A stretch of DNA of 64,000 nt from positions 3,054,001-3,118,000 of the forward strand of contig NZ_CP084930.1 of assembly GCF_023822065.1 (NCBI RefSeq), given 5' to 3'. Of this stretch, positions 46,278 through 49,028 are shown piece by piece. Positions within the stretch are counted from its first letter, which is position 1. Every line of letters begins with the position of its first letter. A model generated the notes under the pieces. It ran no database searches, had not been told where the DNA came from, and saw only the letters and a program-made list of their open reading frames with translations. Both the position numbers and the translations under genes were made by a program. This DNA comes from Sphingomonas morindae. GTDB taxonomy: Bacteria; Pseudomonadota; Alphaproteobacteria; Sphingomonadales; Sphingomonadaceae.

Positions 46278-47816
<1,539 letters not shown>

Positions 47817-47871
47817 TGTCCGTCTCTCATGCGCCGCGCTGCGGCTCGGCGGGTCGTCTGGCGGTGAGAAG

Positions 47872-47925
47872 CCCTTAGGCGACAGGCGGCCCCCGGGGGA
47901 CGCGCAACTTCGTGGCGCCTAAGGG
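47872..47925 (-). promoter_or_regulatory. leuA leader RNA structure (candidate attenuator)
   Basis: CCCTTAGGCG (47916-47925) and CGCCTAAGGG (47872-47881), as read on the minus strand, form a perfect 10-bp inverted repeat with a 34-base interior. A competing stem ACGCGC/GCGCGT (47925-47930 with 47900-47905) shares its border, and CCCCCGGGGG lies inside. The leader peptide stop sits in the first arm, where a paused or released ribosome would choose between folds. No T-run follows, so the output may not be a classical terminator. Confidence 0.5.
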
Positions 47926-47966
47926 CGCGTAAGTCGCAGAAGCGAAAGGTGCAGACCTTCGGACAT
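47919..47966 (-). CDS. Leucine-rich leader peptide of leuA
   Basis: 15 codons, MSEGLHLSLLRLTRP then TAG; five of fifteen residues are leucine (positions 5, 7, 9, 10, 12), using CTT and CTG. It sits 103 bases before leuA on the same strand, its stop falling in the first arm of a perfect inverted repeat. No ribosome site precedes it; instead a -35/-10 pair places the transcript start on the A of the ATG, so it would be translated leaderless. Leu codon density and position fit attenuation control by charged tRNA-Leu. Confidence 0.6.
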   Translation of the reverse strand: MSEGLHLSLLRLTRP

Positions 47967-47972
47967 GAACGA

Positions 47973-48001
47973 ATTGTGCCGGACTTGGCCGCCGCTGTCC
48001 A
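47973..48001 (-). promoter_or_regulatory. Promoter of the leu leader/leuA transcript
   Basis: On the minus strand TGGACA (-35, five of six matches) and CACAAT (-10, four of six) are 17 bases apart. Six bases after the -10 comes the ATG of the leader peptide. The -35 overlaps the loop of the hairpin that ends the upstream epimerase gene. Confidence 0.55.
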
Positions 48002-48016
48002 CCCCTAAGCGGCGGC
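47987..48016 (-). terminator. Terminator-like hairpin after the epimerase gene
   Basis: GCCGCCGCT and AGCGGCGGC form a 9-bp perfect stem with an 11-base loop, beginning 10 bases after the epimerase stop. It separates that gene from the leu leader. Confidence 0.4.
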
Positions 48017-48026
48017 GGCCGCGTTT

Positions 48027-49028
48027 TCAGAGGCCGTGATAGTCCCGGAACCAGGCGACGAAGCGCGGAATGCCTTCGCCGATCGCGATCGTCGGGCGGT
48101 AGCCGAGATCGCGCTCGATCGCGGAAATGTCGGCGTAAGTGGCTTCGACATCGCCAGGCTGCATCGGGTGCAGCTCGCGGATCGCCGGGCGCCCGCACGC
48201 CGCCTCGATCGCGGCGATGAAATCGTCGAGCGCCTCGGCGCGGCTGTTGCCGATATTGTAGAGACGATGCGGGCCGAGGCTGCCGCCCGCCTTCTCGGTG
48301 CCGTCGTCGGCGGGCGGATGATCGAGCGCCGCGATCACGCCGGCGATGATATCGTCGATATAGGTGAAGTCGCGCCGCATCCGCCCCTGGTTGAAGACGC
48401 GGATCGGCGTGCCCGCCAGCACCGCCTGGGTGAAGAGCCAGGGCGCCATGTCGGGCCGGCCCCAGGGACCGTAGACGGTGAAGAAGCGCAGGCCGGTCTG
48501 CGGCAGGCGATAGAGATGCGCGTAGGTTTCGCTCATCAGCTCGTCGGCGCGCTTGGTCGCGGCATAGAGCGAGACGGGCCGGTCCGCCCGATCCTCGACC
48601 CGGAAGGGAAGGCTCGCATTGCCGCCATAGACCGAGGAGGACGAGGCATAGACGAGATGCGCCACGCCGCGCGCGCGCGCCAGCTCGAGCAGGTTGAGAT
48701 GGCCGACCAGATTGGCGCGGGCATAGGCGCGCGGATTTTCGATCGAGTAGCGCACGCCCGCCTGCGCGCCGAGATGGACGATGCGCTCGATCGCCACGCC
48801 GGCCAGCGCCGCCTCCAGCGCCTCGTCGTCGGCGAAATCCAGCTGCTGGAAGCGGAAGAGCGTGTCGGCGCCGGGGGTGGCAGCGATCGCCTCGAGCCGC
48901 GCCTGCTTGAGCGCGACCGGATAATAGTCGTTGAGGCTGTCGATCCCGAGCACCGCCTCGCCGCGCGCGATCAGCGCCCGGCACAGCGCCGCCCCGATAA
49001 AGCCCGCCGCACCCGTTACCAGGATCAT
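48027..49028 (-). CDS. UDP-glucuronate 4-epimerase-like NAD-dependent epimerase
   Basis: 333 residues, extended SDR. VTGAAGFIGAALC binds NAD; ASSSSVYGG and YAATKRADELM give the catalytic Ser and YxxxK; RFFTVYGPWGRPDM and RRDFTYIDDI are typical of UDP-glucuronate epimerases (CapI/LpsL group). It supplies UDP-galacturonate or a related sugar for surface polysaccharide. GGAGG lies 7 bases before the ATG at 49028, which rules against an upstream in-frame start at 49085. Confidence 0.87.
   Translation of the reverse strand: MILVTGAAGFIGAALCRALIARGEAVLGIDSLNDYYPVALKQARLEAIAATPGADTLFRFQQLDFADDEALEAALAGVAIERIVHLGAQAGVRYSIENPRAYARANLVGHLNLLELARARGVAHLVYASSSSVYGGNASLPFRVEDRADRPVSLYAATKRADELMSETYAHLYRLPQTGLRFFTVYGPWGRPDMAPWLFTQAVLAGTPIRVFNQGRMRRDFTYIDDIIAGVIAALDHPPADDGTEKAGGSLGPHRLYNIGNSRAEALDDFIAAIEAACGRPAIRELHPMQPGDVEATYADISAIERDLGYRPTIAIGEGIPRFVAWFRDYHGL

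Follow-up and report, generated by a model that had tools for sequence, protein, structure and literature searches.

A putative leucine-sensing leader upstream of leuA in Sphingomonas morindae and other Alphaproteobacteria

A stretch of 64,000 nucleotides from the genome of Sphingomonas morindae (contig NZ_CP084930.1, positions 3,054,001 to 3,118,000), referred to here as the window, carries a very short, leucine-rich reading frame upstream of leuA, the gene for a 2-isopropylmalate synthase of the bacterial type (TIGR00973; 46278..47816, minus strand). The locus raises the question of whether this frame and the RNA folding around it report the supply of leucyl-tRNA to leuA, and at which step of expression the response would be delivered. 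The comparison with relatives described below suggests a leucine-responsive, ribosome-sensing leader that probably controls leuA mainly at translation. Throughout, the family denotes the Sphingomonadaceae, the class denotes the Alphaproteobacteria, and the genus is that of the window.

The leader frame, its promoter and its distribution

The leader frame (47919..47966, minus strand), recognized from its translation and its conservation in the Sphingomonadaceae, reads ATG TCC GAA GGT CTG CAC CTT TCG CTT CTG CGA CTT ACG CGC CCT TAG and specifies the 15-residue, predictedly leaderless peptide MSEGLHLSLLRLTRP, followed by the stop. Leucine occupies codons 5, 7, 9, 10, and 12 (five of the 15), and 102 nt lie between the stop and the leuA ATG at 47816. 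The frame harbors a conserved block, CGACTTA (47930..47936, minus strand), composed of the arginine codon CGA, the leucine codon CTT as the likely control codon, and a following A. The sole promoter-like match in 47780-48120 is TGGACA-17-CACAAT (48001-47973), for which 0.0 matches were expected in shuffled sequences; its -35 hexamer TGGACA (47996..48001, minus strand) and -10 hexamer CACAAT (47973..47978, minus strand) emerged from the promoter scan and correspond to a weak signal in the family. The transcript start is thereby predicted at 47966, the A of the leader ATG, with no room for a 5' untranslated region. Both the frame with five leucine codons and this spacing, announced in the original prediction, are thus present. 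Just past the end of the upstream ORF (48027), a 9-bp inverted repeat, GGCCGCCGC...GCGGCGGCC (48020-47987, minus strand), was additionally observed, the loop of which contains the -35 box of the leader promoter and which is not accompanied by a T-run.

A search for LeuA in 60 relatives gave matches in 58, of which the 30 best loci were retrieved. In all 27 of these whose LeuA is at least 63% identical, the window included, leuA is preceded by the block CGACT(T/A)A and then a stem; the block and stem are absent from the three fetched loci with more distant LeuA (about 49%; L028-L030). A covariance model, R1, which was built from 21 of the LeuA-found loci and itself includes the CGACTTA block, matched 123 of 149 family genomes, 61 of 289 class genomes under stricter filters, and 22 of 299 genomes of the phylum, one of them outside the class. 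This sole outsider (G465, E about 0.001), whose 922-nt stretch contains no LeuA, was counted as false. A LeuA gene lies downstream in all 30 fetched loci of the class search, and 20 further matches were fetched, 9 from the phylum search and 11 from the class search (the latter out of 31 matches without a fetched locus), with LeuA downstream in 19 of the 19 inside the class. A DNA pattern scan of named genomes returned at least 118 loci; among the 118 listed, LeuA is found downstream in 112, and the other six end within about 250 nt of the block. As these loci were chosen by the CGACTTA pattern, they are uninformative on the constancy of that block, and they form much of the set used in the base-stem tests below. 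Gluconobacter, Asaia, Thalassospira, Tistrella, Emcibacter, Kordiimonadaceae, and Sphingobium are among the matches listed.

According to the original prediction, the proposal would fall if the leucine codons and stems were lost in close relatives. In the genus, the R1 element is kept in nine of the ten genomes, and the tenth (G003) retains a leucine-rich frame while the stem is absent. Upstream of the gene for a second type of isopropylmalate synthase in that genome (L306), inspection by eye revealed the frame MIRIGASLLRL behind TTGACA, which stops right after its Leu-Arg-Leu codons without a stop-codon stem and is a possible leader that has lost this stem. One relative with a fragmented LeuA1 match (G016), whose locus was left out of the fetched set, gave no R1 match. 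The S. morindae genome holds a single clear copy of the leader (58.5 bits with R1); a second copy was rejected, the runner-up reaching only 14.9 bits. Membership of a known Rfam family was likewise rejected, as the Rfam 15 models gave no match in the window between 45800 and 48400 (E up to 5) and none at gathering score in 20 related loci.

The leader peptide itself was examined in 95 family leaders, which remain when six duplicates and one row misplaced at a contig end (L185) are removed from 102. The peptide has 15 residues in 57 and 16 in 22 of them (79 of 95 together), with a mean of 4.5 leucine codons, which upholds the expected conservation of a Leu-codon peptide in relatives. The nearest in-frame start lies 30 nt before CGA in 56 leaders and 27 nt before it in 22. 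When 56 leaders are aligned on their ATG, two weak signals appear, one resembling TGGACA (around -37 to -32) and one reading T-A-(A/T) (-13 to -11), neither exceeding 0.37 bits at any position. The leader ATG is not preceded by a clear Shine-Dalgarno signal; L190, with AAGGAGG before its ATG, is the exception. Since the spacing of these promoter boxes leaves little room for an ordinary 5' untranslated region, a leaderless start is likely in the family. It may be special to the family, because four loci of the order (L017, L019, L025, L026) have in-frame ATGs that give frames of 32-45 residues.

Codon choice in the leaders is conspicuous. CTT makes up 226 of the 426 leucine codons in family leaders, a count that includes the near-invariant CTT, versus 10 of 430 in the leuA genes of 13 genomes. 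The set of 75 leaders used for the block comprised 27 found through LeuA and 48 found through R1, which includes the block. In this set, CTT stands four codons ahead of the usual stop in 70 leaders and CTA in two as printed, and three rows (L285, L289, L291) are out of phase and were re-read by eye as CTT; an A directly follows in 72 as printed, and the stop stands at +15 in 67. The codon before the near-invariant CTT is CGA in 63 of the 75 and a leucine codon in the other 12, by which CGACTTA as a fixed nucleotide or peptide requirement was rejected. These replacements of CGA were seen in weak R1 matches; only the leucine codon and the following A are near-constant. The five-codon mini-frame ATGAGAGACGGACAATGA, which ends on the leuA ATG and had also been pointed out, is present as well, but ATG frames ending there occur in just five of 13 family loci, the window included, and all five differ in length and sequence, so a role for it was rejected for non-conservation.

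The enzyme encoded behind the leader is not always the same. As assigned by sequence motif, the downstream gene in the 102 family rows (duplicates included) is a bacterial-type LeuA in 39, a second type in 56, and unclassified in seven; an NCBIfam check in three genomes, including that of the window, identified the second type as TIGR00970. Within the genus, G006 has the leader before the second type, and the window genome has it before the bacterial type though both synthase genes are present. The two synthases share about 29% identity. The occurrence of the same leader before two such dissimilar enzymes, even within one genus, would suggest that the sensor follows the reaction and not the gene; the enzyme may have been exchanged behind a standing leader, or the leader may have moved. 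The second synthase gene of the window genome (TIGR00970 type; G000:C1:1938775-1940421, L304) is preceded, about 45 nt before the ORF start, by CTACGACTTAC and then a 9-bp perfect hairpin, both noticed by eye and outside the R1 list, which is perhaps a worn copy of the leader.

The stop-codon stem and pairing at the leuA Shine-Dalgarno region

The leader stop TAG is part of a stem, P2, whose 5' arm CCCTTAGGCG (47925-47916, minus strand) and 3' arm CGCCTAAGGG (47881-47872, minus strand) form 10 perfect pairs in the window. The original prediction had named this inverted repeat and a rival stem sharing its first arm, and compensatory changes in relatives had been put forward as a check; all three were encountered. 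Across 70 sequences, 96.3% of the P2 cells are paired, eight of the ten pairs show compensatory change, and 88 compensatory cells were counted against 14.7 in shuffles, while sliding the partner by one column lowers pairing to 51-58%. This alignment was fitted to the covariance model. In a MAFFT alignment of 21 sequences, 94.8% of the cells are paired and 22 are compensatory against 6.2, with neither figure reached in any of 500 shuffles; the count of further pair types in the same alignment is not above shuffles (500 of 500). RNAalifold also recovers the 10-bp stem from the 21 LeuA-found loci.

The stop codon itself is less constant than the stem. In 25 of the 95 family leaders, the stop comes two or three codons later (+21 or +24; for instance, RLTRPWA and stop), and the stem is kept by matching changes, which argues that P2 is selected as RNA. 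Family leaders such as L239, L244, and L250, in which TAG has become TGG, a new stop stands two codons on, and the opposite arm is altered to match, are a clean case in which RNA pairing outweighs the position of the stop codon.

The rival structure is a local hairpin, H1 (GCGCC-CTTA-GGCGC, 47915..47928, minus strand), which places the stop codon in its loop and 3' arm. H1 and P2 share bases and are therefore mutually exclusive, and both covary. Among 62 distinct family sequences, the three outer pairs of the H1 counterpart contain 20 compensatory cells, where 1000 shuffles average 1.9 and reach at most 16; the outermost of the three forms in only 18 of the 62. Taken alone, the leader of the window folds unremarkably (energy z -1.20, 20 of 200 shuffles equally good), so the case rests on conservation in relatives. 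The predicted minimum-free-energy and centroid folds of the window also pair CGGACA directly 5' of the leuA ATG (47817..47822, minus strand) with TGTCCG at the leader start (47965-47960); this pairing is a prediction for the window fold, the conservation of which could not be demonstrated.

A further element, the base stem P1, would join the leucine codons to the Shine-Dalgarno region of leuA. When the best ungapped complement of the Leu-codon segment was sought between P2 and leuA in 227 leaders, it ended 0-15 nt before the leuA ATG in 111, against about 52 after shuffling; examples are CCTTCGA with TCGAAGG, CCTGCTTC with GGAGCAGG, and TCTCGCT with AGCGAGA. Since CU-rich leucine codons fit purine-rich Shine-Dalgarno sites, lineage-specific matching was tested by exchanging partners inside each of three groups (family LeuA1, family LeuA2, and other families). 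When the segment -12..+3 was scored against the 25 nt immediately preceding leuA, leaders reached 13.62 with their own partners and 12.19 with swapped ones (z 8.18, 0 of 2000 permutations, n=190 clusters), and 139 stricter clusters gave z 7.46. A scan along the leader peaks at the same segment, on the leucine codons (z 7.44). As controls, the stretch 25-50 nt before leuA gave z 0.9-2.2, and two other leader segments gave z 0.3-1.8. By group, for the segment -15..+3, the signal amounts to z 5.59 in other families (n=92) and z 4.48 in family LeuA2 leaders (n=54), and it is modest in family LeuA1 leaders (z 2.41, 12 of 1000, n=26). An unstratified test gave z 6.42 for -30..-13, which is still leucine-rich, and z 2.83 for -48..-31; the within-group scan gave z 2.26 for -48..-33 and z 2.4-2.8 for +24..+45. 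Part of the P1 score is generic, as the swapped mean is already higher at the leucine codons.

Some lineages (L057, L094, L175) show a plain match of CGACTTA to TAAGTCG downstream, which was rejected as a general rule; the broader match between leucine codons and the Shine-Dalgarno region held. In the window, the best candidate for P1 is weak: CTGCG in the Leu-Arg codons (47935..47939, minus strand) with CGCAG (47839..47843, minus strand), 22 nt upstream of the leuA start, which comprises only 5 bp and sits upstream of the Shine-Dalgarno position. P1 accordingly appears to be supported across the relatives and not specifically in this genome. Relatives with a strong P1 include the lineage of L094 and Gluconobacter.

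Mode of action

The mechanism proposed here builds on what was computed, namely, the conserved peptide, P2, H1, the promoter spacing, the use of rare codons, and P1 across the group. Transcription would begin on the leader ATG or no more than a few bases from it, and the 15-residue peptide would be translated without an upstream ribosome-binding site. With ample leucyl-tRNA, ribosomes would pass through and leave the leader, whereupon the Leu-codon segment would pair with the leuA Shine-Dalgarno region in P1, enclosing P2, and leuA would be poorly translated. With scarce leucyl-tRNA, a ribosome would stall on the leucine codons, including the near-invariant CTT four codons before the stop, and cover the P1 strand, together with part of the P2 strand when it stands on the last CTT; the Shine-Dalgarno region would then be freed and leuA translated. 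The stalling, the leucyl-tRNA signal, the direction of the switch, and translation as the controlled step are what we infer.

Stalls were modeled by treating the ribosome as a blocked stretch, with the mean openness of the leuA Shine-Dalgarno window as the readout. Blocking the leucine codon before CGA raised openness by 0.142 in family LeuA1, 0.065 in family LeuA2, and 0.062 in other leaders. A stall on the near-invariant CTT raised it by 0.084 (se 0.034) in family LeuA1 and by 0.048 (se 0.017) in other families; the value for family LeuA2, 0.039 (se 0.028), is about 1.4 standard errors and unclear. A ribosome at the stop changed openness by 0.014, -0.006, and 0.025 in LeuA1, LeuA2, and other leaders, respectively, and a control block changed it by at most 0.016. 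The modeled effect is small, and 8-17% of the leaders drop by more than 0.1 (e.g., L083, from 0.46 to 0.25). In the window, a stall on CTT takes openness from 0.29 to 0.57, a stall on the leucine codon before CGA has no effect (0.28), and openness is 0.45 with the ribosome at the stop, so that the model does not cleanly tell the states apart here.

The main competitor is transcription attenuation, in which the leader peptide would sense leucyl-tRNA in the same way and the output would be premature termination, brought about by Rho in the region following P2 or by P2 itself as a weak intrinsic terminator. A ribosome on the last CTT would presumably mask part of P2, an effect in the direction expected if stalling relieves termination. 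Family leaders are enriched in T just after P2 (0.21 and 0.25 versus 0.12 and 0.18), leaving room for weak termination; at least five T within the 9 nt after P2 occur in nine of 227 leaders, and TTTT somewhere between P2 and leuA occurs in 51 of 227. L025 of the order, when inspected by eye, displays a perfect hairpin and T-run, ATTCCCCGCGGGGAATTTTT, after the stop-codon stem, and its lineage may use transcription termination, which may also contribute in some other lineages. Against this stands the lack of any terminator-like site in 47780-48120 of the window, where no T-run follows P2, as the original prediction had remarked; in the relatives, a simple scan, which overlooked L025, detected a hairpin with a T-run in only four of 168 leaders, and in three of these it lies within the block. 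On these scans, an intrinsic terminator was rejected. The termination model, moreover, does not predict the covariation of the leucine codons with the Shine-Dalgarno region. The choice between Rho and translation had been left open at the outset, and it is this covariation that favors translation. Control by termination is accordingly regarded as possible but rather unlikely.

Two other readings dispense with codon-by-codon sensing. TnaC, which senses tryptophan in the ribosome, ends in Arg-Pro-stop, as does the peptide of the window, and the C-terminus RLxxP-stop is highly conserved; an R-L-x-R-P-stop peptide might hence sense free leucine in the ribosome, and the arrested ribosome would set the RNA fold. 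The Pro-stop end is nevertheless lost in the 25 family leaders with shifted stops, in which compensating changes keep the stem, and the arginine gives way to a leucine codon in 12 of the 75 leaders (three of which were re-phased by eye). Conservation at the codon level (CGA CTT A) points to RNA and against arrest, and TnaC-like arrest was rejected, which makes this reading very improbable. It appears just as improbable that the stop-codon stem is the binding site of a protein or of leucine itself, with the peptide a mere by-product. Protein binding was indeed proposed for the actinobacterial LEU element in the part of that account available (PMC1262725), and the strong conservation of a single stem and a single short block would suit it; the loops, however, vary in sequence and length across families, and such a model has no need of conserved leucine codons, rare-codon choice, or a reading frame. 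The translational switch thus remains the preferred reading.

Relation to known systems

An earlier description of an alphaproteobacterial leuA leader was not found in the literature searched, which mostly did not cover subscription journals, so an earlier account is possible. What is new here is the covariation between the Leu-codon segment and the Shine-Dalgarno region of leuA, together with the scarcity of intrinsic terminators. It seems about evenly balanced whether the whole picture holds, that is, a widespread, apparently undescribed RNA leucine sensor of the Alphaproteobacteria that uses the control codons of its leaderless peptide as the anti-Shine-Dalgarno strand of leuA as well, acts by translational attenuation, follows the reaction, and either arose convergently with the actinobacterial LEU element or shares an ancient ancestry with it. 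Teaching usually presents attenuation of proteobacterial amino-acid genes as a matter of transcription termination. If the picture is true, it would add a second compact solution in this phylum, similar to an unsettled actinobacterial proposal, and provide a simple testable sequence model of a control codon, a stop-codon stem, and a masked site, also in industrial organisms such as Gluconobacter, as well as a case of a regulator retained while the enzyme behind it differs.

The enterobacterial leuL and trpL attenuators combine a peptide rich in the regulated amino acid and rare control codons with mutually exclusive stems, a stop codon near the first stem, and an intrinsic terminator with a T-run. 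All of these features but the last are shared by the present leader; the terminator with its T-run is absent in the window and found in few relatives, and no Rfam model matches. In erm-type translational attenuators, antibiotic-induced arrest leaves a stalled leader ribosome that frees a masked Shine-Dalgarno site. The same logic of unmasking would apply here, with an unrelated peptide and gene.

Within the Alphaproteobacteria, as far as the accessible portions of the reports go, the trpL leader of Sinorhizobium meliloti (peTrpL, rnTrpL; PMC7298713, PMC10117765) encodes 14 residues on a transcript that starts on the ATG, as is predicted for the leader start described here; it differs in that it senses tryptophan, controls trpE(G) by transcription termination, and yields a peptide that also acts in trans. 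The ilv leader attenuator of Caulobacter belongs to the same class and likewise has a leader peptide for branched-chain amino acids, but it works through a Rho-independent terminator and involves another gene and other codons, according to the part of the report available (PMC4117421). Leu-codon leaders before leuA are also mentioned for Corynebacterium and Mycobacterium in the sections seen of two further papers (PMC4046766, PMC3526491).

The closest parallel is the actinobacterial LEU element upstream of leuA (Seliverstov et al. 2005, PMC1262725), whose mode of action was left open in the accessible part of that study. On the same basis, both systems have a Leu-codon leader peptide before the gene for isopropylmalate synthase, and in the LEU element the leucine codons pair with the leuA Shine-Dalgarno box, as they appear to do across the relatives studied here, though weakly in the window. 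The LEU element belongs to another phylum and was described with a pseudoknot, whereas the stop-codon stem, the CTTA block, and the predicted leaderless start are features of the present leader that go unmentioned for it in the text available.
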